A stretch of 38,866 bases of DNA from Gammaproteobacteria bacterium (lineage in GTDB: Bacteria; Pseudomonadota; Gammaproteobacteria; Steroidobacterales; GCA-2729495): NCBI GenBank assembly GCA_029245525.1, contig JAQWPD010000054.1:1-38866 (forward strand), read 5' to 3'. Position 1 is the first letter of the stretch. Each line of letters begins with the position of its first letter. A model generated the notes under the pieces. The model was not told the DNA's origin. It saw nothing but the letters and a program-made list of their open reading frames with translations, and made no database searches. The translations under genes and the position numbers were made by a program. Positions 26,909 through 38,125 of this stretch are shown piece by piece.

Positions 26909-29086
26909 CTACAGGAGTTCAAGCTTCGCATAAGACATAACCAGCCACTTCATGCCTTCGTATTCAAAACTCACCTGCACCCGCGCATGCGGACCCGTGC
27001 CCTCGTAATTCATGATCACGCCTTCGCCGAACTTGGCGTGGCTGACTCTCTGGCCCAGGTTTATCGGCGCATCGGAGCGGGTGGCAGCACCGGGACGGCG
27101 GACCGGCTGCCTTTTGCCGCTATTGAAAGCGGGCGCAGACACCGCAATTTTCGGGCGAATGTCTTCGACAAGCTCTACCGGTATCTCGTTAATGAAGCGT
27201 GATGCCTGAGCATAGGTTTCAGAGCCCCACATGCGACGTTGTTCGGCATGGCTGATATACAGCTGCTGCATCGCGCGGGTAATGCCAACGTAGCAAAGCC
27301 GGCGTTCCTCTTCGAGCCCACTGGCGTCATTGAAAGAGCGTTTATGCGGAAACAGGCCTTCTTCAATTCCGGCCATAAACACCAGCGGAAATTCAAGGCC
27401 CTTTGCCGAATGCAGCGTCATCATTTGCACGCAGTCTTCCCACTTGTCGGCCTGATCATCACCGGCTTCAAGTGCCGCATGGGCCAGAAATGCCATTAGG
27501 GGAGGTAACTCCAGCTCGGCATCATCGGGCTCAAAGCCCTCCGCTGCAGTGACCAGTTCATCTAAATTTTCAATGCGCGCTTCGCCGCGTTCGCCCTTTT
27601 CTTTTTTGTAGTGCGCGATTAAGCCACTCTGGTTAATGGTGCGATTCACCTGTTCATGCAGATCGAGCCCTTGGGTGTCTTCGTCGATTTTTTCAATCAG
27701 TGCCAGAAACGCCTGTACGGCATTCGCTGCACGCGCCGACAGTTGTCCGCCCGCAGAGCTAAGTGCGGCATGCCACATCGGCACTGCATTAGCACGCGCG
27801 TAGTCACGAATAAGAGTGATGGTGGCGGCACCAATACCGCGGGTGGGCAAGTTAATAATTCGTTCCAAGGAGGCATCATCATCGCGATTTTGAATAAGTC
27901 GCAGGTACGCCATAGCGTCTTTAATTTCAGCGCGCTCGAAGAAGCGTAAGCCGCCATAGACCCGGTAGGGGACGCTGTTTTGAAAGAAGGCTTCTTCAAA
28001 CACGCGCGATTGTGCGTTGGAGCGGTATAAAATAGCGATATCAGCACGGGCATTGCCCTGTGCCACCCAATCCTGAATACGGGCCGTAATAAATTCAGCT
28101 TCATCGCGCTCGTTGTAGGCGTTGTAGATCCGAATCGGATCGCCTTGATTGCCGTCTGTCCACAGTTTCTTGCCGAGTCGTCCCGCGTTGTTATCGATGA
28201 CAGCATTGGCCGCATTTAGAATATTGCCGGTGGAGCGATAGTTCTGCTCCAATTTAATAAGGCTAATGCCGGGAAAGTCAGTTTGCAGCCGCTGCATGTT
28301 TTCGACCCGCGCACCGCGCCAGCCATAAATAGATTGGTCATCGTCACCTACCGCGAACGGTATTCCAGTTTTGCCGGTAAGCACCCGCAGCCAGGCGTAC
28401 TGAATGGTATTGGTGTCCTGAAACTCATCCACCAGCACATGCTGAAACCGACGTTGATAGTGGCCTAAAATATCGGGGTTTTTTAGCCACAGTTCGTGGG
28501 CCCGCAATAGCAGCTCGGCAAAGTCGACTAAGCCTGAGCGTTCGCAGATATCCTGATAGTTTTGATACAGCGTAATCATTTGCGCACGGGTGTAGTCGCC
28601 GCGATCGTCCATGTTGGCAGCGCGGCGGCCTTCATCTTTTTGCGCATTAATGAAGTACTGCACCTCACGCGGCACCCAGGCGGTCTCATCGAGTTCCAGA
28701 CCTTTAATCATGCGTTTTATAATTCGCAGTTGGTCATCAGAATCGATAATCTGGAAACCCTTCGGAAGCTGGGCTTCTTCGTAATGAAACCGGAGCAGCC
28801 GGTGTGCCAGGCCGTGAAACGTTCCTACCCATAGATTGCCCACCGGCATATTGAGCAGCGTTTCGATGCGCGCCCGCATTTCAGCCGAGGCCTTGTTGGT
28901 GAAGGTGACTGCCAGAATACTCAGCGGGGACACCCGCTCAACCTCAATGAGCCACGCAATCCGGTGCACAAGCACCCGGGTTTTACCGCTGCCTGCGCCG
29001 GCCAGCACCAACATGGGCTCAGCGGCAGCCGTTACTGCCTGTCGTTGAGCGTCGTTCAGGCCATCAAGTATTGGCGTTACATCCAT
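26909..29086 (-). CDS. uvrD: DNA helicase II UvrD (superfamily 1)
   Basis: A 725-residue 3'-5' helicase of nucleotide excision and mismatch repair, close in size to E. coli UvrD (720). Motifs in order: Q-motif LNDAQRQAV (10-18), Walker A AGAGSGKT (29-36), TFTNKASAEMR, Walker B DEFQDTN, GDDDQSIYGWRGA, LEQNYRS, TLHSAKGLEFP and VGITRA. The C-terminus ends with the Tudor-like part (LGQRVSHAKFGEGVIMNYEG...). No LexA-type CTG-N10-CAG box is seen upstream, unlike in E. coli. It ends 117 bases before trkA. Confidence 0.96.
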   Translation of the reverse strand: MDVTPILDGLNDAQRQAVTAAAEPMLVLAGAGSGKTRVLVHRIAWLIEVERVSPLSILAVTFTNKASAEMRARIETLLNMPVGNLWVGTFHGLAHRLLRFHYEEAQLPKGFQIIDSDDQLRIIKRMIKGLELDETAWVPREVQYFINAQKDEGRRAANMDDRGDYTRAQMITLYQNYQDICERSGLVDFAELLLRAHELWLKNPDILGHYQRRFQHVLVDEFQDTNTIQYAWLRVLTGKTGIPFAVGDDDQSIYGWRGARVENMQRLQTDFPGISLIKLEQNYRSTGNILNAANAVIDNNAGRLGKKLWTDGNQGDPIRIYNAYNERDEAEFITARIQDWVAQGNARADIAILYRSNAQSRVFEEAFFQNSVPYRVYGGLRFFERAEIKDAMAYLRLIQNRDDDASLERIINLPTRGIGAATITLIRDYARANAVPMWHAALSSAGGQLSARAANAVQAFLALIEKIDEDTQGLDLHEQVNRTINQSGLIAHYKKEKGERGEARIENLDELVTAAEGFEPDDAELELPPLMAFLAHAALEAGDDQADKWEDCVQMMTLHSAKGLEFPLVFMAGIEEGLFPHKRSFNDASGLEEERRLCYVGITRAMQQLYISHAEQRRMWGSETYAQASRFINEIPVELVEDIRPKIAVSAPAFNSGKRQPVRRPGAATRSDAPINLGQRVSHAKFGEGVIMNYEGTGPHARVQVSFEYEGMKWLVMSYAKLELL

Positions 29087-29116
29087 TTAACGGGTTCCGG
29101 GGTGATCACGGGTTGG

Positions 29117-29139
29117 GCGGCAGGCGAGCGACCTGCCGC
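29117..29139. other. Perfect 8-bp stem-loop between the Sel1-like gene and uvrD
   Basis: GCGGCAGG (29117-29124) and CCTGCCGC (29132-29139) form an 8-bp GC-rich stem with a 7-base loop, 30 bases upstream of the uvrD start. Neither strand has a following T run, so it is not a standard intrinsic terminator; it may act in the uvrD leader or at the 3' end of the upstream transcript. Confidence 0.55.
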
Positions 29140-29184
29140 GAACGCCAAAGTTTATCTTAAATACTCACTAAAAAACGTCGAGCT

Positions 29185-30195
29185 TCAGTCACAGCGCCAT
29201 AATGTTTGATTGGGGTTAATGAGTCCGGGCACAGTGATTGCTCGGCACATGCTGGTATCGATAATAGGCTGCAGCGAGCCTTCGCAGGGCAGTGCGTCGC
29301 TAATGTTTGGGACGCTGACAAATAGGGGCGGTGGTTCAGTGGAAAAAACCAGCCTGCCGTGGGAGCGGCGTTCGGCTGCAAGATCAAGCAGCAAACGACT
29401 GGCTTTATTGCAGGCACCAACGGTGTCGTATTCGCCAAGACCAGCACTTAGTTTTTTAATGTTTTGCGCAAGCTCAGGTTGCGCGACCGGCAACCCCCCT
29501 GCCAGCAAGCCTGTAATAGCCCAGGCCAGCGCATCGCGTTCTATCAGTGGGTTGTTGTTGCGGAGCACAGCGAGTCGCGCTCTATAAGTCGGATCACTGT
29601 TAAAGGCATCGAGCTGCCGGTTAGCAAATATCTGCAACAGTTCGCTTAAGCGGAACATAGCGTACACCGAGCCATAACTTGCCGCTTGCCGATACCATTC
29701 GATGGCTTCCGGAGGGCTCTTATTATCACCGCTCATACTCAGTTCGGCGAGTGCCTGTGCAGCAGCAATATCCCCGTTGCCGGCAAGCGTGAGCAAGTCA
29801 CTTGCGGGGGTGGCGGCATAGACTGCCAGCAGAGTGCTGTCACCGATGCGGCCCAATACTGGCAGCGGGCCAAGATAACCGCGCTGCTCGTACCAATCAG
29901 TGCTGGCGGCTAATAGCGTATTAAGTTCGGCCACTCTATTGCCCAGCGCCAACTCAAGGTCGGTGCGGGTGCGGATGGCCGGCGGTACGACGTTGTCCGG
30001 CGTATCACCGGTATCCAGCGTGAAGGGCTCGGGGTCGATTGATTGGGCTACCAGGCTCAGCACCACGTACAGCAAAATGCCCAGCAGCAGCGTCGCAAGC
30101 AATATCGAAACGTTGGTTCGGTTAAGAGTTTTTACTTTTTGTTTCAGGGCGAGTCCCGGTTTATTGCTTGCCAGCCGGCGCACGTAACACCGCAT
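29185..30195 (-). CDS. Uncharacterised membrane-anchored protein with Sel1-like repeat segment
   Basis: A 336-residue protein that I do not recognise as a named family. From the ATG at 30195 it overlaps the end of ctaA by 35 bases; a TTG at 30216 and a GTG at 30183 are other possible starts. One membrane helix (VSILLATLLLGILLYVVLSL) lies about 35 residues from the N-terminus, so the rest is probably periplasmic. Near the middle, LAGNGDIAAAQALAELSMSG and EAIEWYRQAASYGSVYAMFRLSELL read like a Sel1/TPR-like helical repeat pair, often used for protein contacts. The last 80 residues hold four Cys (GAC, LPC, SMC, WRC), suited to disulfides. It follows ctaA directly in an oxidase-assembly operon, where heme O synthase is often found; a role there is only inferred. 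Confidence 0.7.
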   Translation of the reverse strand: MRCYVRRLASNKPGLALKQKVKTLNRTNVSILLATLLLGILLYVVLSLVAQSIDPEPFTLDTGDTPDNVVPPAIRTRTDLELALGNRVAELNTLLAASTDWYEQRGYLGPLPVLGRIGDSTLLAVYAATPASDLLTLAGNGDIAAAQALAELSMSGDNKSPPEAIEWYRQAASYGSVYAMFRLSELLQIFANRQLDAFNSDPTYRARLAVLRNNNPLIERDALAWAITGLLAGGLPVAQPELAQNIKKLSAGLGEYDTVGACNKASRLLLDLAAERRSHGRLVFSTEPPPLFVSVPNISDALPCEGSLQPIIDTSMCRAITVPGLINPNQTLWRCD

Positions 30196-31162
30196 GGTTG
30201 AGGTTAATGACGGCAAGCAGCAGCAATGCGGCTACCATGTTGTGTGCGGTCGCAACCAGCAGCGGCAGGCCAAACCAGACGGTGGCTATGCCTAAACTTA
30301 TTTGTGTAATCAGTGCCGCAAGTACCAGCATCGATGCAGCGCTTACCCGGCGACCCAAACCGGCACGCAGGTATTTGTGCGTCGCGAAGACAATGACCAA
30401 CAATGCAATTAATGCGCCGATTCGATGCGTGTAGTGAATAGCCACCCGCGCCGGCGCCTCAAGAATGCCGAACTCATAGTTCACACCAAGGCCGCGCCAC
30501 ATGACAAAGCCTTCGCTGAAGTCCACTTGATCTGGCCACCATTGACCCTGACAGGTCGGCAGGTCGGGGCAGGCTAAGGCCGCGTAGTTGGAGCTGGTCC
30601 AGCCGCCCAAGGCAATCTGACACACGAGTACCGCCAGCGCGACAATGCCCGCAATTGGCGCCGCCGTTTTTCGGCCGGAGGCCGGCCAACGATTTTCACA
30701 GACACACCAGAACAACAGCCCCAGCGTTGATAGCCCGCCGAGCAAATGCGCCATCACGATTAACGGTTTTAATAACAGCGTGACCGTCCACATGCCGAGC
30801 AGACCCTGAAAGCAGACCAGAAAGAACAGCAGCACCGGCACCTTTACCGGCTGTCCGGGGTCTTTGCGGTTAAATACCGCAAGCCCTGCAAGCAGCATGA
30901 TAGAAAAACCCAACGTCGAGGCTGCGTAGCGATGAATCATTTCGCGCCAGGCTTTTTGTGCTTCGAGCGGGCGCTCGGGGAAGGCTGCTTCCGCGGCGTC
31001 TATAGCCAGATCTGTTGATGGAACAACGATTGAACCGTAGCAGCCCGGCCAGTCAGGGCAACCGAGACCGGCATCGCTCAGACGCACCCAGGCGCCCATC
31101 ACCACCACAACCAATGCCAGTAAGCAGGCAAACACACACAATCTTTGATACCAGACTTTCAT
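30161..31162 (-). CDS. ctaA: Heme A synthase (COX15/CtaA)
   Basis: A 333-residue membrane protein with eight predicted helices in two four-helix halves. It oxidises the C8 methyl of heme O to make heme A for aa3-type cytochrome oxidase. Candidate heme ligands are His77 (MIHRYA), His139 (MAHLLGG), His246 (YTHRIG) and His307 (TAHNMV). The paired periplasmic cysteines Cys35/Cys41 (LGCPDWPGCYG) and Cys198/Cys204 (ACPDLPTCQG) are present. It follows the SCO-like gene after an AT-rich 85-base gap, so it may have its own promoter. Confidence 0.94.
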   Translation of the reverse strand: MKVWYQRLCVFACLLALVVVVMGAWVRLSDAGLGCPDWPGCYGSIVVPSTDLAIDAAEAAFPERPLEAQKAWREMIHRYAASTLGFSIMLLAGLAVFNRKDPGQPVKVPVLLFFLVCFQGLLGMWTVTLLLKPLIVMAHLLGGLSTLGLLFWCVCENRWPASGRKTAAPIAGIVALAVLVCQIALGGWTSSNYAALACPDLPTCQGQWWPDQVDFSEGFVMWRGLGVNYEFGILEAPARVAIHYTHRIGALIALLVIVFATHKYLRAGLGRRVSAASMLVLAALITQISLGIATVWFGLPLLVATAHNMVAALLLLAVINLNHAVLRAPAGKQ

Positions 31163-31197
31163 GTTTTTATTTCGTGTAAATAATTTAAATGTATTGA

Positions 31198-31239
31198 GCT
31201 ATCAATATTAAACGACATGGAATAAGCGATTTTGATAGC
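31198..31239. repeat. Perfect 8-bp inverted repeat in the ctaA leader
   Basis: GCTATCAA (31198-31205) and TTGATAGC (31232-31239) are exact inverted copies separated by 26 bases in an AT-rich gap. On the reverse strand the left arm reads TTGATAGC, which includes a near-consensus -35 (TTGATA), but no matching -10 is clear. It could be an operator or a weak hairpin. Confidence 0.5.
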
Positions 31240-31247
31240 AGATGCGG

Positions 31248-31823
31248 TTAACCGATTTGCGACAACTTCAGCAGTTTCTTAATGTCTTTACGCACGTCTG
31301 CAATGGGCATATCTGATGGGTACTTGAGAATTACATTGCCTTGCGGGTCAACCAAATACAGATCGCCGGCAGCGTATTCTTCCAGCACGGCCAGCTGCGC
31401 CCCGGTGTTTTCCGGCTCCGCCACCAACAGTGCGGGGTGTTCTGCGGTGATATACGAGCGATCGACAGAACCACTGTCGGCTAAAAATACCAGCTGCAGT
31501 CGATTTGCATCTTTGCCAAAGGTGAGCCGCATTTGTCGCATATCAATTAAGCGGTTTTTGCAGCTGTCATCGCAATTGCCCGGTCCGGTGTAAAGCAGAT
31601 TCCAAACGTCTCGCAGGTGCTTGCGCGGGTTGTTGTCGCTGGCTGGCTGCAAAGTAATGTCAGGAATGGTAACCGGAGGCCACAGTAGCTCGCCATTTTC
31701 GGTGCTACCACCGGGTCGCCAGCCACCCGTTGCATAGATAAAAACAGCAAGGGCCAAAGGACCGAAGAATAAAAAGTTGATCAGCAGGAAGGCTCGCCTT
31801 CCGGATTTTTGACGTTCGCTCAT
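31248..31823 (-). CDS. SCO1/thioredoxin-like oxidase-assembly protein
   Basis: A 191-residue protein with one N-terminal membrane helix (about residues 11-31) and a periplasmic thioredoxin-like domain. GPGNCDDSCKNRL (81-92 region, Cys84 and Cys88) gives the CxxxC spacing used by SCO1 proteins to bind copper, though the usual following Pro is Lys. The later LYLVDPQGNVILKYPSDMP resembles the SCO/AhpC C-terminal strands. It is placed between SURF1 (17 bases) and ctaA, so a role in copper or thiol handling for cytochrome oxidase assembly is likely. The canonical SCO His is not obvious. Confidence 0.78.
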   Translation of the reverse strand: MSERQKSGRRAFLLINFLFFGPLALAVFIYATGGWRPGGSTENGELLWPPVTIPDITLQPASDNNPRKHLRDVWNLLYTGPGNCDDSCKNRLIDMRQMRLTFGKDANRLQLVFLADSGSVDRSYITAEHPALLVAEPENTGAQLAVLEEYAAGDLYLVDPQGNVILKYPSDMPIADVRKDIKKLLKLSQIG

Positions 31824-31840
31824 AGGGCACGGCTTATTGC

Positions 31841-32671
31841 TTAAGTGTTTCTTTCGCGACGCTTGCGGGCGTTACGAAAATGAAGAAGTGTGTAAATAAT
31901 GAGGGCTAACGCCGCAAAAGAAAACCATTGCACCGCATAGCCGAGGTGAGTTTGGGGTCTCATAATGTCGGGTTGCCAGTTGCGACGGTAGCCATCGGGC
32001 TGATCGTCATCAAGCAGCAATTGCCATTCGAGCAGGGGTTCTTGGATCAATGTGCTGATTTGTGCGGCAGTGGGCCACGTCATTGGCAGTGGCCAGTTAA
32101 CGCTGCTTGCCTCAGGCAGTGGTGTATCCAGCCGAATGCCCGGAGCCGGCAAGTAAGCCAATCGCCCACGAACCTCGCGCGCGTTATTGGCGACGCCAAT
32201 GTTGGGCAGTTGCCGGCGATCTGCACTGCCCTTGACCCAGCCCCGGTTGACCAGCACAACCTGGCCACCCAGTTCTGCATCGAGCCGGAATGGCGTGAGC
32301 ACCTGATAGCCGACTTCACCGTCCGACACCATGTTGTCGAGCAACACTTGCCGTTTGGGCAGGTAGGTTCCGCGCAGTGAGAAACGCCGATAGAGCATTT
32401 CGCCGGCATTGCTATCAGCCGGTGCAGAGAGCGCGGGCGTTTGAGTTGCGTCATTAAAGCTGGTGATAAATGCGCGTTTTTCTGCTGCCCGATTTAGCTG
32501 CCAGAAACCAGCGGATAGAAATACGGCGAGACCTGCCGCCAGTAATAATGTTGACCACACCAGGTGTTTAGTTCCTGAGTCTTGTGGGGTTTTTGATGCT
32601 GCCGGACTGGCTTTGGGTTCACCATCCGGGGCGTCACTGTTATGATTTGTATTCATTGATTTAAGTGGCAT
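31841..32671 (-). CDS. SURF1 family cytochrome oxidase assembly protein
   Basis: A 276-residue membrane protein with two terminal helices and a periplasmic loop. GFWQLNRAAEKRAFI (about residues 56-70) is the SURF1 signature after helix 1. Other family segments are LRGTYLPKRQVLLDNMV, VLVNRGWVKGSADRRQLP and the C-terminal HLGYAVQWFSFAALALIIY. SURF1 assists heme a3 insertion into oxidase subunit I. Two ATGs (32671, 32656) are possible; neither has a good ribosome site. The 39-base gap to the divergent DUF2909 gene must hold both leaders. Confidence 0.92.
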   Translation of the reverse strand: MPLKSMNTNHNSDAPDGEPKASPAASKTPQDSGTKHLVWSTLLLAAGLAVFLSAGFWQLNRAAEKRAFITSFNDATQTPALSAPADSNAGEMLYRRFSLRGTYLPKRQVLLDNMVSDGEVGYQVLTPFRLDAELGGQVVLVNRGWVKGSADRRQLPNIGVANNAREVRGRLAYLPAPGIRLDTPLPEASSVNWPLPMTWPTAAQISTLIQEPLLEWQLLLDDDQPDGYRRNWQPDIMRPQTHLGYAVQWFSFAALALIIYTLLHFRNARKRRERNT

Positions 32672-32710
32672 TTCAGCCGCGTGGCTGCCTGTGGAGCAGC
32701 GGAGTTTTTA

Positions 32711-32953
32711 ATGTTAATTAAAGTTCTGATTTTGGTGCTGCTGCTCGCCATCATTGCCAGCCTGGGTTCAGGCCTGTTTTTTTTGGTAAAAGACAAGCCG
32801 GGTGACAGCAAACGATTGGCCAACAGTCTCACCTTGCGCATTGTATTGTCTATTGCGCTGTTTTTGCTGCTTATTCTTGCCTACCAGCAAGGATTGATTC
32901 AGCCGCACTCAGCACTGAGAACCGTTCCGGGGGCTCAGCAGCTAGCCCCATAG
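32711..32953 (+). CDS. DUF2909 (twin transmembrane) protein
   Basis: An 80-residue protein with two membrane helices (about residues 2-27 and 44-64) joined by a short charged loop (KDKPGDSKRLANSL). This layout and its position next to SURF1 match the DUF2909 proteins found in aa3-oxidase loci; no activity is known. The ATG at 32711 is chosen over one at 32681, because GGAG lies six bases before it and the protein then begins with the first helix. In relatives it is often downstream of coxC; no cox structural gene is here. Confidence 0.85.
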   Translation: MLIKVLILVLLLAIIASLGSGLFFLVKDKPGDSKRLANSLTLRIVLSIALFLLLILAYQQGLIQPHSALRTVPGAQQLAP

Positions 32954-32966
32954 ACCCTTTTGGGTC
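32953..32966. terminator. Small hairpin between converging genes, possible terminator
   Basis: GACCC, TTTT loop, GGGTC: a perfect 5-bp stem that begins in the DUF2909 stop codon and lies 16 bases before the stop of the converging methyltransferase gene. No T run follows on either strand, so intrinsic termination is uncertain. Confidence 0.35.
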
Positions 32967-32981
32967 AATTGCCCGAAAGAT

Positions 32982-33872
32982 TTAGTCTTCGTCAGTGGGG
33001 TCATCAGTGGTCATCTTGCGCGGCCCGCGACCCAACAGCCGCGAGAGCGGAACGCTGTACTCTGCGGGTTCGGCAGGTTTTGGTGCCTCGCCTCCGCGGG
33101 CGTGGGCATAAACAAGCTCTATGGTTACCGGTAGCTTGTCATCGACATTGCGCTGGCTCTCATAATTGAGTCGGGTTTGTTGCCAATAGGCTTTGCCCCC
33201 TAATCCCTTTCGTCTTCTGCTAATTTGACGGGTGGCACTTAGCGCTCTTAACTCGTGAATGAGTTTGTCAAAGCTGCTGTAGGTGATAGTGAGCAGTTCG
33301 GTATCCAGTACCGGATCACGGAATCCGGCTTTTAGCATTTCATCACCGGCATTGTGCAGGTCGGGTAGCGCATCGAAGTGCTCGTAGTTATCGCGGGCGC
33401 AACTTTGGCGGAGCTCAGCGAACGAGCCATTGCCGCAAAAAGCGGTGAGCAGTAATCCGCCGGGCTTCAGCACTCGGTTAATTTCATTCAGCACTGATTG
33501 CAGGCTCCCCTGCGCGTTAGCCCCATATTGAAGGGCGAGATTAGAGACAATTAAATCCACGCTGTTGTCGGTTAATGGCAGCTCGAGCATGTCGGCGCAG
33601 AGCACGTCACCCTGCTGTTGAGCGAGCTCGCTCATCGCTTCTGAGCTATCAATAGAGACGCAATTGGTGTTTGGGTATAGCCCTCGCAGTGCCGTGGCAA
33701 GCTCACCCCCGCCGCCACCAAGAACCAGGCTATGCAAAGGCTTTAGCCTAAACATCGACAATCGTTCAAGCAGTTCGTCGCGCACTATAGGGTGCAGAAA
33801 ATCGACGTTGCTAAAGTTCGCGGCTTTGCGGTTAAAGGCGCGTTTCAAGTAGTTTTTATTTTTATCGGCCAT
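32982..33872 (-). CDS. Class I SAM-dependent methyltransferase, BioC-like
   Basis: A 296-residue cytosolic protein with a Rossmann methyltransferase domain. VLGGGGGELATAL (about residues 50-62) is the S-adenosylmethionine loop. CVSIDSSEAM carries the acidic ribose ligand, ADMLELPLTDNSVDLIVSNLALQ matches motifs II-III, and EINRVLKPGGLLL is the post-motif. The C-terminal part FDKLIHELRALSATRQISRRRKGLGGKAYW matches the pattern seen in BioC malonyl-ACP O-methyltransferases, which start biotin synthesis. It lacks neighbours bioB/F/H/D, and the last 35 residues are an extra Pro/Arg-rich tail, so the BioC role is possible rather than shown. Twelve bases separate it from apbE. Confidence 0.75.
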   Translation of the reverse strand: MADKNKNYLKRAFNRKAANFSNVDFLHPIVRDELLERLSMFRLKPLHSLVLGGGGGELATALRGLYPNTNCVSIDSSEAMSELAQQQGDVLCADMLELPLTDNSVDLIVSNLALQYGANAQGSLQSVLNEINRVLKPGGLLLTAFCGNGSFAELRQSCARDNYEHFDALPDLHNAGDEMLKAGFRDPVLDTELLTITYSSFDKLIHELRALSATRQISRRRKGLGGKAYWQQTRLNYESQRNVDDKLPVTIELVYAHARGGEAPKPAEPAEYSVPLSRLLGRGPRKMTTDDPTDED

Positions 33873-33884
33873 TGCTTTTCGGGT

Positions 33885-34889
33885 TTAGTTGTTTAGTAAT
33901 GCGGCAAATGCCGGCGACAGTTGTTCAATCAGTTCACCGTCGGCGCCGCGCCGAATAATACTAATGGCAAGAGCGTTTTCCTCTGCCAGTTGCAGTGCTT
34001 CATCTGAGCCTTTAACTAACAATGCGGTGGCCCAGGCATCTGCGCTCATGGCATCGTTGGCAATCACACTTATTGAGCCGATGTTGTCGGTAACCGGCCA
34101 GCCCGTCAATGGGTTAATGCTGTGTGAATAACGCACGCCATTAAATTCAAAGAAGTTGCGGTAGTCGCCGGAGGTGGCGATAGCGGCGTTGTTAAGCGTG
34201 ATAACTCTTTGGGCACTGCGTTCGTTGGTGATGGGTTTTTCTATGCCGATCTGCCATGTCTGTCCTGTCACTTTGTTGCCGCGGCTGCGCAGCTCTCCAC
34301 CGATGTCAATCAGCCAAGCATCAACACCGGCATCATCCAGCAGGTCCGCAAGCTGATCTACGGCATAGCCCTTGGCAATGGCCGAAAGATCGATTGCCGT
34401 TGCCGGGTGACTTTTGCGTAATGCCGGTGGGTTGTTTCGGACTGAAATATTTTGATAGCCCACGTGGCTGAGTCGCTCAAGGATAAGTGCGGTAGGCGGC
34501 GGCTCGCTTTGAAGCGGCCCACTACCGAAGCCCCAGAGCTCAACCAGCGGTCCGATGGTGATGTCAAAAGCCCCATCGCTGCGCTCGCTTATTGACTGCG
34601 CCAGAGTCACTATTTGCGCGGTTGAGGCGCTTACCGGAAACCATTGGTTTGCGCCGGAGGCGTTAAATAGACTCACTTCCGAGCCGGCTTTGTACGTTGA
34701 CAGGCTGGCATCCAGCTGTTGCAGCCGGCGATCAAGCGCTGCATCCAGCGCCAAGCGCGCCGGCCCAAAGTACTTTACGTTATAGAGAGTGCCCATGGTT
34801 TCGCCACGGATGCTGTGCGCTTGCTCCTGAGGTGCGCAGCCGCTTAGGGCGGCATAGGCCATAAAGAGCCACATGCCTATGGTTTTCAT
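33885..34889 (-). CDS. apbE: FAD:protein FMN transferase (ApbE), lipoprotein
   Basis: A 334-residue envelope lipoprotein (lipobox A-L-S-G-C, Cys18). ApbE proteins covalently attach FMN from FAD to Thr of target proteins such as NqrB/C or RnfG/D, using magnesium. RGETMGTLYNVKYFG opens the mature domain; VELWGFG, LSAIAKGYAVDQLADLL, LIDIGGELRSRG and HSINPLTGWPV are the conserved nucleotide-binding and metal segments. No Nqr or Rnf genes are in the window. Its ATG overlaps the stop of the small upstream gene by four bases, which suggests coupled translation. Confidence 0.93.
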   Translation of the reverse strand: MKTIGMWLFMAYAALSGCAPQEQAHSIRGETMGTLYNVKYFGPARLALDAALDRRLQQLDASLSTYKAGSEVSLFNASGANQWFPVSASTAQIVTLAQSISERSDGAFDITIGPLVELWGFGSGPLQSEPPPTALILERLSHVGYQNISVRNNPPALRKSHPATAIDLSAIAKGYAVDQLADLLDDAGVDAWLIDIGGELRSRGNKVTGQTWQIGIEKPITNERSAQRVITLNNAAIATSGDYRNFFEFNGVRYSHSINPLTGWPVTDNIGSISVIANDAMSADAWATALLVKGSDEALQLAEENALAISIIRRGADGELIEQLSPAFAALLNN

Positions 34890-35149
34890 CGACTGCTGCC
34901 CAGGCCATTATCACCCCGGAGCTTGCGGGCCCGCAGCGCCTTCAGCTGAAAACGCGGGAAGTCGACAGTGCGGATGGATTGGGAGAGCAGTCCGGGGCCA
35001 AAAATTAGCCAGACAGTTTGCCGCCGCCATTCTATTGGTAGTGCCAGCATTTGGAATTCCGGAGATAGCCCCGATGTCTCTGCCGCCGCAGAAGTAACCT
35101 GTGACACTGCAACACCGTATAATTCGCGATAATCTTTGACAATAACCAC
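34886..35149 (-). CDS. Small uncharacterised protein coupled to apbE
   Basis: An 87-residue open frame starting with GTG; an in-frame TAG lies 21 bases upstream, so no longer start exists. Its TGA overlaps the apbE ATG (ATGA), the main reason to believe it is translated. The protein has no signal peptide. A central segment LALPIEWRRQTVWLIFGPGLL mixes hydrophobic and Trp residues and could be a strand-rich core, followed by a basic tail (LKALRARKLRGD). I do not recognise a family. A substrate or helper for ApbE is one guess; a non-coding leader is the alternative. Confidence 0.5.
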   Translation of the reverse strand: MVIVKDYRELYGVAVSQVTSAAAETSGLSPEFQMLALPIEWRRQTVWLIFGPGLLSQSIRTVDFPRFQLKALRARKLRGDNGLGSSR

Positions 35150-35320: not shown

Positions 35321-36631
35321 ATGAGCGTCGCTAAACTCAGTACTCACCAGAAAGCATTGGCCATTAACCTCGACCGCCATCTTTATGGTGCTATAGCAGA
35401 AATCGGCGCAGGTCAGGAAGTGGCCCGTTGGTTTTTTAGGGTTGGCGGTGCGGCAGGTTCCGTCGCTAAAACCATCTCCGCCTATGACATGAAAGTGTCG
35501 GATGAGGTTTATGGCAAAGCCGGCCGGTATGTTTCGCGGGAGCGCGTGGAGGCAATGCTCGATAAAGAGTATTCGCTGCTTATTTCACGCCTGGGCAATG
35601 ACCGTCCGGCCGAGACCCGCTTTTTTGCATTTGCCAATACCGTATCTGCGCGGAATTTTGATGGCACCAACGAGTGTCATGGTTGGGTGGGGCTGAGATT
35701 TCAGCACGAGCCTGGTGCCGAGCCCAGCACCGCTATCATGCACGTTAATATGTTGGATCCCACCAATTTGCAGCAGCAAGAAGCGCTGGGTGTGTTGGGC
35801 GTAAATCTCATTCACAGCGTGTTTCTGGCGGGCGATGATCCTGTGGATGGCTTGAAGTTTGTCTCTGACAACATAGATGCCTACGATATTGAGGTTGATG
35901 TGGCCGCTTTATCCGGTCCTGCGTTTGAATCGGTCGACGCAGCACATACCGGCATGAGCATGCTTGCAAGCGGACTGGCAAAAGTGGTTCTGTTTGATAA
36001 AGAAGGTCAGATGCGGCCGCCATCAGAAGTGTTGCGCCAGCGACCCTTGATTATTCGTCGTGTTGCGATGAGTCAACCGTTGGTTGCGAACGAGCGCGTC
36101 ATGGAAATGGCGAGCCAAAAGTTCTTAAGTGAAGATGGTGCACATGAGAAGCCTTTGTGCACGGTCGACTTTTCTTTCTCGACGGTGCACGCCGATAAGC
36201 CCAAAAAAATTGAACAGTATGCACAAAAGGTGCGTGAGACTCTGGCTCAGGGCGAGTGGGTGATGGTGAGTCGTCTGAGGCATAACTACGCGTTTACTGA
36301 CTACCTGCGGCGGTATTCACATCAGCCCCTGCGCTTTGTTGTAGGCACCTCGGCATTTGCGATGCTGCTTAACGAAGGCTACTACCGCGATCTCTCCGGC
36401 GGTATTTTGGAAGCCACCGGTCGTTTATTTACCAATGACGTGAAGCTCTATGTGCACCCGATGAAGAGTGAAAACTTCTACAAGCACATTGAGTCTTCAG
36501 AGATAGACCCTAATTGGATATCGGTTGGCGGGAATGCGCTGATCTCGCTTGGCGACCTGGAGTTTCGCCCTCCGACTAACCTCCTTTACGAGTATGTTCG
36601 CGAGGCAGGCTGGGTGTTTGAGGTTCGTTAG
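35321..36631 (+). CDS. Uncharacterised 436-residue protein, conserved-looking
   Basis: The longest gene here without a function I can name. It has no signal peptide and no membrane helix, so it is probably cytosolic. Gly-rich and invariant-looking stretches are YGAIAEIGAGQEVARWFFRVGG (residues 22-43, given in two parts: YGAIAEIGAG and QEVARWFFRVGG), AAGSVAKTISAYDM (44-57), ARNFDGTNECHGWVGLRFQ (110-128) and QEALGVLGVNLIH (153-165). The GAGQE segment resembles a nucleotide loop but lacks a following Lys-Ser/Thr, so it is not a Walker A. From memory, similar proteins occur widely in bacteria without a verified role. It stands alone, divergent from the small apbE-linked gene by 171 bases; AAGGA is 13 bases before the ATG, rather far. 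Confidence 0.85.
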   Translation: MSVAKLSTHQKALAINLDRHLYGAIAEIGAGQEVARWFFRVGGAAGSVAKTISAYDMKVSDEVYGKAGRYVSRERVEAMLDKEYSLLISRLGNDRPAETRFFAFANTVSARNFDGTNECHGWVGLRFQHEPGAEPSTAIMHVNMLDPTNLQQQEALGVLGVNLIHSVFLAGDDPVDGLKFVSDNIDAYDIEVDVAALSGPAFESVDAAHTGMSMLASGLAKVVLFDKEGQMRPPSEVLRQRPLIIRRVAMSQPLVANERVMEMASQKFLSEDGAHEKPLCTVDFSFSTVHADKPKKIEQYAQKVRETLAQGEWVMVSRLRHNYAFTDYLRRYSHQPLRFVVGTSAFAMLLNEGYYRDLSGGILEATGRLFTNDVKLYVHPMKSENFYKHIESSEIDPNWISVGGNALISLGDLEFRPPTNLLYEYVREAGWVFEVR

Positions 36632-36727: not shown

Positions 36728-37213
36728 CTACGCTTTCTTGCGTCTTCCTACTCCAATCAAGCCAACAAGGGCTGAACCGAACAGCCAGATTGCTGCTGGG
36801 AGGGGTACTACGGCGCTCGGGGTAGCAATTCCCGCACTGATATAACCAAACGATACGCCGTTCAAGGATGAGGCGATCACCACGCTAACCGTCTCGCCCG
36901 CAACTCCCAAATAGTTGCTAAACGTAAGCCGTTGCAAAGCGTTTGGAAATTCAGATTCCAGACTATTAAAGTCGATAGTAATAATCGGATTTCCGGGGAC
37001 GTCGAAGCCAGGAACGTAGCCGTTGACCTCAAAAAATGGCTCGCCTAACGGACTAGCAGGCGTAATTGCAATATTTCGAAATACCCCACCGTTGTAGTCG
37101 AACGTCCCGCCTAAGCCATTGCCGTTCGTGCCGCTCAGGGTGTAATGGATGTTAGCCGCATGGCTGCCGGCAGAAACTGTCAATGCGACCAATACTAATA
37201 AAGTTCTTAACAT
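36728..37213 (-). CDS. Exported protein with VPLPA-type (PEP-CTERM-like) sorting signal
   Basis: A 161-residue secreted protein. The ATG at 37213 gives a clean signal peptide (MLRTLLVLVALTVSAGSHAA), so it is preferred to one 30 bases upstream. The mature part is Gly/Asn-rich and strand-like. The C-terminus has the tripartite sorting signal: VVPLPAA (135-141), a hydrophobic helix IWLFGSALVGLIGVG, and the basic end RRKKA. Such tails are recognised by exosortase-type enzymes that cut and anchor or release surface proteins. No exosortase is in the window. The function of the mature domain is unknown. It is divergent from the next similar gene. Confidence 0.85.
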   Translation of the reverse strand: MLRTLLVLVALTVSAGSHAANIHYTLSGTNGNGLGGTFDYNGGVFRNIAITPASPLGEPFFEVNGYVPGFDVPGNPIITIDFNSLESEFPNALQRLTFSNYLGVAGETVSVVIASSLNGVSFGYISAGIATPSAVVPLPAAIWLFGSALVGLIGVGRRKKA

Positions 37214-37304
37214 AAGCTCACACTCTTGTTTACCAATTAGCAATTACCGTAAGACTACAAATAGCATAGATAGGTCAATGCCGCATTACTGCATCGCGGC
37301 GGAC

Positions 37305-37369: not shown

Positions 37370-38125
37370 ATGAGAATCTCTTTGTCATATTTCACCATGC
37401 TGCTGGCCATTGGCGGTCTGCTCAGCGGAGCGGCCAACGCAGCAGCGCTTCAGTTTGATATCTCAACTACGGTGTCACTGGCAGACGATAGTTATGACGG
37501 GCCTTATCAGGTTGGTGACACCATCACTGGCACGTTTATTGTCGATGACGATACAGCGAATGGCGGCCCTGGTTCTGATCCAGGTCCGGGAACAAATCCG
37601 GGCCATGAGTACACGTCCTTCTGGGAGTTTAACGGAGCACCCTATAGCGTGAACTTGCTGGATGTACAAGAAGGCACGAGCTTTAGCAGCGATACACAAG
37701 CAGTAGTGGTGAATGACGGTTTAGCTATTACCGCGGACGACACTGGTGGCATGATTCCCGATGGTACGTACGACTGGATAGAAATTTTGGGCGCTACAAC
37801 CTCCGACTACTGCCCTTTGCCCGGCGGTGACTGCTCTGGAGACCCCAATTCTATCCTTGTTGCCGATGGTGAAGAGTGGACTTTGGCAATATTCGCCACA
37901 GACGACTCTTGGTTTACGGGTGGAGGCATTCCGCAGAGCCTGCCTGGAAGTTACACTGCCTTTCTGATTGGTTTTGACTTTGATGCGGTCGGTAATGAAA
38001 TAGGGGTGGTTCTAGCGCCGGTAGATACGTTGACGGTAACAGCTGTTCCTGTGCCAGCTGCTGTGTGGCTGTTCGGCTCGGCTCTTGCTGGTTTAGGCTG
38101 GCTACGTCGCAAGCAAACAACATAA
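37370..38125 (+). CDS. Exported protein with VPVPA-type (PEP-CTERM-like) sorting signal
   Basis: A 251-residue secreted protein with a signal peptide ending near ANAAA (residue 24-26). The mature part is acidic and rich in Asp, Gly and Thr, with a Gly/Pro/Asp-rich loop (DTANGGPGSDPGPGTNPG, 61-78) that could bind calcium. One Cys pair (Cys148, Cys155) may form a disulfide. The tail is VPVPAAVWLFGSALAGLGW followed by LRRKQTT, nearly the same as that of the divergent neighbour, and predicts the same sorting enzyme. TAAGG lies seven bases before the ATG. A good terminator follows. The biological role is unknown. Confidence 0.87.
   Translation: MRISLSYFTMLLAIGGLLSGAANAAALQFDISTTVSLADDSYDGPYQVGDTITGTFIVDDDTANGGPGSDPGPGTNPGHEYTSFWEFNGAPYSVNLLDVQEGTSFSSDTQAVVVNDGLAITADDTGGMIPDGTYDWIEILGATTSDYCPLPGGDCSGDPNSILVADGEEWTLAIFATDDSWFTGGGIPQSLPGSYTAFLIGFDFDAVGNEIGVVLAPVDTLTVTAVPVPAAVWLFGSALAGLGWLRRKQTT

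Follow-up and report, generated by a model that had tools for sequence, protein, structure and literature searches.

A conserved protein of Gammaproteobacteria and Bacteroidota is apparently an undescribed CinA-like/NMNAT-like fusion with a probably repurposed pocket

What kind of protein is encoded by a full-length, apparently conserved gene that resembles no known enzyme, and what might it do? The question is raised by the gene at 35321-36631, on the + strand of the window (the whole stretch of 38,866 nucleotides analysed here), which the initial annotation had described as monocistronic and as encoding a cytosolic protein of 436 residues. Indeed, the ORF begins with ATG and runs for 436 codons plus a stop; its nearest relatives (L001 and L002) are 96% identical to the window protein across residues 1-436, and whole-gene dN/dS against them is 0.049 and 0.054, with values of 0.029 to 0.072 for each of the two domains recognised below, in three pairs that include both relatives. 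Such values (about 0.05) point to strong purifying selection and, together with the near full-length relatives in two phyla, mark a real gene and not a chance ORF. The neighbouring ORFs on both sides (34886-35149 and 36728-37243) lie on the opposite strand, which makes a single-gene transcript plausible. The promoter scan returned one promoter-like site, within the gene, against 1.5 expected, and nothing convincing; the terminator scan gave three terminator-like sites against 1.6 expected. A cytosolic location is likewise plausible, as the 19-residue mean hydropathy peaks at 1.23, and is not proven.

Upstream of the gene, on the minus strand (26909-34889), lies an ordinary set composed of a UvrD helicase, COX15/CtaA, SURF1, a methyltransferase, and ApbE, and two ORFs of this block (29188-30216 and 31251-31823) are without a Pfam match. 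Downstream, ORFs 36728-37243 and 37370-38125, also without a Pfam match, end in C-terminal tails (VPLPAAIWLFGSALVGL... and VPVPAAVWLFGSALAGL...) that resemble PEP-CTERM-like sorting signals of exported proteins.

Sequence searches agreed with the initial view that no known enzyme could be assigned. For the window protein, Pfam (best E 0.13, SNO), NCBIfam (best E 0.2), and the PDB sequence search (best E 0.17) returned only noise; CinA (PF02464) was absent among the Pfam matches at E up to 10, as was any COG1058-type match, and the weak matches to SNO, DUF3482, RsmE, RNA-editing MP42, and others were dismissed. When 52 members of the family were scanned with Pfam and NCBIfam, nothing exceeded the cut-off in any of them, PF01467 appearing below threshold only. 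At E up to 1, the archaeal NMN adenylyltransferase model TIGR01527 matched six members (best 0.016), PRK01153, also an NMN adenylyltransferase, four, and CoaD two; hence adenylyltransferase models do recur, but the unrelated L-ribulose-5-phosphate 4-epimerase PRK13213 recurs equally often (six members, best 0.0059). Each Pfam model was found in at most two of the 52 members, with CTP_transf_like in one, at 0.22, and a match of DUF87 to L009 (E 0.0028, under the cut-off) was read as chance. PHROGs gave short matches of unknown function only (best 0.0091), a PDB search with the family alignment profile (A2) gave a single row at E 0.2, and the literature searched held, judging by titles and abstracts, no paper on this family or on a CinA-NMNAT fusion.

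The way out of this impasse was offered by L035, a marginal match (E 3.1e-4) among the 147 genomes of the order, which clears the Pfam cut-offs for both CinA and CTP_transf_like. This domain pair suggested by eye that the window protein could be a CinA-like/NMNAT-like protein, and the guess was then tested by structure. The AlphaFold models of the window protein (alignment of 52 sequences) and of a longer relative (alignment of 45 sequences) reached pLDDT 86.2 and 90.2, respectively. Residues 1-175 of the window model matched ten CinA-family entries in VIA (Z 14.4-16.4), and its second half matched NMNAT/NadD entries (Z 8.1-11.0), the next folds reaching at most 7.1; for the longer-form model, Z rose to 18.3 for NMNAT and was 16.2 for CinA. 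With Foldseek, the top match of the window model was CinA 2a9s (E 4.1e-5), and NMNAT 5z9r followed at rank 23 (E 1.1e-2), with the longer form giving an NMNAT match at E 1.0e-6. The protein, which had seemed impossible to place, is thereby modelled as a CinA/PncC (NMN deamidase) fold followed by an NMN/NaMN adenylyltransferase fold in one chain. The predicted layout comprises a CinA/PncC-like domain at about residues 5-171 (35333-35833, + strand), a linker at residues 172-238 (35834-36034, +) that lies between the two VIA-aligned domains, and an NMNAT/NadD-like domain at residues 239-436 (36035-36628, +), which ends without the C-terminal ISSTxxR part.

Profile comparisons pointed in the same direction by way of L035. 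The CinA+cytidylyltransferase fusion to which it belongs (L035 664-1779, with the related loci L140-L149, L150, and L151) occurs in one gammaproteobacterial family (10 of 11 genomes); a search with L035 gave no match at 1e-5 in 299 Pseudomonadota genomes, and a scan of viral contigs confirmed none. Two uncultured phages also gave matches, one of 485 kb over 95% of L035 at 26% identity and the other of 595 kb over its second half only. In hhalign comparisons, which are single pairs whose E-values are not equivalent to database E-values, the family alignment matched that of the L035-type fusions at 95.2% over 324 columns, collinearly; the fusions in turn scored 84.4% with CinA and 94.1% with NadD, and for five unrelated control families the values stayed at 0.0-0.3%. 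Directly compared, the family gave a null result against CinA (0.1-0.4%) and, against NadD, 23.2% with all members, 27.4% with the long form, and 0.6% with the short form; the same series against L035 alone was 29.5%, 26.8%, and 68.6%, and the short form alone matched the fusion alignment at 11.5%. The claim of ancestry is drawn from the two AlphaFold models and the L035-type intermediate, not from the direct hhalign comparisons or the 11.5% of the short form. From fold and profiles taken together, it is highly probable that the window protein descends from a fusion of CinA/PncC with an NMN/NaMN adenylyltransferase.

Such a descent would leave the question of whether the old chemistry was retained. 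In the CinA of Agrobacterium tumefaciens, the S31A and K63A variants are described as without detectable activity, Y58F as losing most of it, and R145A as inactive, with stability also lowered (PMC5384747). These positions were located in the family by aligning 52 of its members with 12 fusion proteins and 31 CinA sequences; with 31 more members, the total rose to 83. The column of the catalytic serine (S31) holds Ser in 31/31 CinA and Ile28 in 52/52 and then 83/83 members, and that of the catalytic lysine (K63) holds Lys in 31/31 CinA and Ser60 in 52/52 and then 83/83 members. The substrate-binding tyrosine (Y58) occurs throughout the alignment and is Tyr55 in all 83 members. On the DNA, the block AEIGAGQEVA (residues 26-35; 35396-35425, +) occupies the place of the CinA 'AESCTGG' motif, and YDMKVS (residues 55-60; 35483-35500, +) carries Tyr55 and Ser60. 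Furthermore, E27, G29, A30, Q32, M79, W122, H141, and N162 are fixed in 83/83 members, and the new invariant set of the pocket includes Gln32, Arg69, Arg75, Glu83, Trp122, His141, and Asn162. Two CinA positions are harder to follow: at Thr105 the family shows a gap (52-member alignment), with Thr107 nearby by eye, and Arg145 has no safe place in the alignment, with Gln152/Gln153 nearby by eye.

In total, 31 positions are identical in 83/83 aligned members, which bears out the conserved glycine/aromatic-rich blocks reported initially, and 29 of them fall in the CinA-like half. Ten positions published as conserved in CinA could be mapped onto the family, and eight of them are invariant, compared with 21/157 elsewhere in the domain (p 1.2e-5); the pocket is thus not drifting, but conserved around a different set of residues. 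This invariance fits catalysis and binding alike and does not distinguish the two. Judging by the aligned residues, deamidation through the known Ser/Lys dyad is unlikely. That the protein might still act as an NMN deamidase and/or NMN adenylyltransferase through non-canonical residues would be consistent with the retention of both folds and of the CinA Tyr and Met in 83/83 members, and with a last His of the adenylyltransferase motif that survives in 7/66 members of 450 aa or more; we regard it as quite improbable, since the residues whose replacement abolished activity in A. tumefaciens CinA (S31A, K63A; PMC5384747) are replaced here, the ISSTxxR Arg is found in 0/83 members, and the genome already has a CinA and a NadD.

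The second half has lost its motifs in a graded way. Within the 66 members of at least 450 aa, GxFxP has its Pro in every one and the first H/T position is Thr in 65, whereas the final His of GxFxPx(H/T)xGH is mostly gone and the ISSTxxR Arg is absent, the latter region being missing altogether in the short form. The cyanobacterial NMNAT-C is, by its description, an NMNAT homologue whose activity depends on the H/TxGH motif (PMC13036487). The window form retains neither adenylyltransferase motif; residues 247-258 (36059-36094, +) mark the place of GxFxPx(H/T)xGH, and the only residue there in common with the longer form is Arg247, which is also the single invariant position of the second domain out of 31. 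Compared pair by pair, short and long forms have a mean identity of 0.517 in the first domain, 0.298 in the linker, and 0.234 in the second domain. Four Bacteroidota proteins of 437-439 aa (L175-L178) have likewise lost the adenylyltransferase motif. In a FastTree analysis of 81 rows, from which L174 (a fragment) and L025 (cut by a contig end) were left out, they group among other Bacteroidota (support 0.937) and not with the short form of the Gammaproteobacteria, which suggests at least two separate losses of the NMNAT site. Since dN/dS of the second domain among close relatives is as low as that of the first, the NMNAT-like domain itself has been kept.

The family is patchily distributed. 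Counting in each case the window's own genome, it was found in 16/60 near relatives, in 18/147 genomes of the order (17 after setting aside G319/L035, the distant fusion), and in 34/369 sampled Gammaproteobacteria, and it was present in 36/198 sampled Bacteroidota, including the carrier used as centre. One further candidate (G129/L011) reached E 4e-4 over about 50 residues only, with 12.6 bits against A1, looked by eye like a peptidase-type protein, and was not counted. The short form (436-446 aa) comprises ten sequences from the window's own family of genomes, in which a longer sequence (L023) also occurs; the longer form is mostly of 465-497 aa, the length of L179 being left unused because its sequence is possibly incomplete. 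In a tree built from 52 sequences, one branch (100/100) holds the short form and another (97/96) the 30 Bacteroidota rows, a separation that does not point to any recent exchange between phyla. Neither plasmid nor phage records matched the window protein, and the L009 protein was unmatched in plasmids. Two loci on viral contigs did match: L138 over 43 residues at a contig end, and L137, which falls together with L040 and L043, both of Bacteroidota, and is possibly host DNA. In BFVD, the window model matched A0A3G4ZJY5 of Terrestrivirus (340 alignment columns, E 3.6e-9) and A0A6J5RR79 of an uncultured Caudovirales phage (400 alignment columns, E 6.5e-11); the fusion may therefore have relatives among viruses.

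Loss of the known catalytic motifs, together with the absence of the gene from most sampled genomes, could be taken to indicate a decaying gene without function. Two genomes, in fact, carry the family copy in two pieces (G952:C75:1526-2974, with an internal TGA, and G542:C13:971103-972280), which are broken genes or assembly errors. Nevertheless, decay is contradicted by the low dN/dS, both overall and per domain, and by the 31 invariant positions across 83 members, and we consider it extremely improbable. Nor is the family filling in for missing enzymes, as the same genome encodes an ordinary CinA (L066) and an ordinary NadD (L108), both above the cut-off.

Gene neighbourhoods were compared at 63 of 64 loci (34 gammaproteobacterial and 29 Bacteroidota; L198 was left out because the focal gene was not found), and neighbour clusters were listed if present in at least three loci within three genes. 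A PhnP-like metallo-hydrolase lies within three genes in 15/29 Bacteroidota loci (L133 5999-6805 and 14 others; adjacent and divergent in 14) and in 0/34 gammaproteobacterial ones; its best NCBIfam model is PRK02113, with PhnP at E 1.5e-37, both below the cut-off. PhnP acts on ribosyl cyclic phosphates. A ligand of ribose-phosphate type would agree with this pairing, which is however seen in only a part of one phylum; as other genes of one clade are conserved there too, nothing was built on it. Among the Gammaproteobacteria, the commonest neighbour is a signal-transduction-type cluster, found in 5/34 loci. Neighbours of signal-transduction type include a hybrid histidine kinase directly upstream in L009 and an HDIG-domain gene upstream in L121.

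Such neighbours would suit a pseudoenzyme, which would bind an NAD precursor or a different nucleotide in its rebuilt pocket, leave it unconverted, and serve as a sensor, a regulator, or an enzyme partner. The vanished CinA dyad, the degenerate NMNAT motifs, and the ordinary CinA and NadD of the genome all speak for this possibility. However, signalling neighbours are scarce, with one cluster in 5/63 loci at varying positions and strands, and the 29 positions kept invariant within a single domain in both phyla are, in our judgement, more than binding usually needs; we hold the pseudoenzyme somewhat unlikely, while taking it seriously.

Since the usual catalytic residues are gone in both halves and the first half keeps another fixed set, the job of the protein is probably new. 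In the repurposed enzyme that we favour, Ile28 and Ser60 stand in place of the NMN-hydrolysing Ser/Lys pair, in a CinA-like pocket where Glu27, Tyr55, and Met79 stay fixed. Tyr55 may still hold a mononucleotide-like ligand in this rebuilt pocket, and the chemistry would differ from Ser/Lys amide hydrolysis; Glu27 and His141 come first as possible acid/base residues. The NMNAT-like half, whose motif loss removes it from the normal adenylyltransferases, would be a scaffold or partner surface. Taken whole, with non-deamidase chemistry in the rebuilt pocket and an accessory NMNAT half, this reading is put forward tentatively, at slightly less than an even chance. Its more specific form, a new class of CinA-fold enzyme with the pocket EIGAxQ...Y....S...W...H...N, catalysing a new reaction of a metabolite that resembles a pyridine or a ribose phosphate, and with an accessory NMNAT half whose active site was erased on at least two branches, is possible and somewhat more speculative.

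In brief, our data point to an apparently undescribed family in which a CinA pocket, probably repurposed, is joined to an NMNAT domain whose motifs have eroded. A name taken from the architecture, CinA-like/NMNAT-like fusion, is to be preferred; naming by remote similarity as NMN deamidase or nicotinate-nucleotide adenylyltransferase would mislead. An NAD-recycling fusion that keeps its architecture and changes both active sites implies either new nucleotide chemistry or an unrecognised NAD-precursor sensor, and a strongly conserved family of two phyla, with no Pfam or NCBIfam match above the cut-off, is now open to specific assays. With regard to the confident match to a characterised family of known activity, which the initial annotation had named as refuting its proposal, the outcome is divided: the folds match, but the known catalytic residues do not.

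This division becomes clearer against the known systems. From CinA/PncC (PF02464) the family has the fold and the pocket Glu, Tyr, and Met at matching places, but the Ser/Lys dyad is Ile/Ser and the invariant set is new. From NMNAT/NadD (PF01467, TIGR00482) it keeps the fold, and the longer form retains a GxFxP-like trace with the first-position Thr; yet the last His is mostly and the ISSTxxR Arg always lost, and the window protein is without either motif. The L035-type fusion has the same domain order, with a collinear profile match, and adenylyltransferase motifs that look intact (GAFNPLHEGH and DISS in L035), unlike those of the window family; its CinA half keeps the catalytic Ser in 11/12 proteins, with Met or Thr in the place of the catalytic Lys. 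Finally, CinA proteins of the COG1058-PncC type, such as that of Thermus thermophilus, are described as fusions built around a PncC-type NAD-recycling domain (PMC3680494, PMC4246079). There, the partner is an N-terminal COG1058 pyrophosphatase; in the window family that domain is absent, the CinA-like fold starts at the N-terminus of the protein, and the partner is a C-terminal NMNAT fold.
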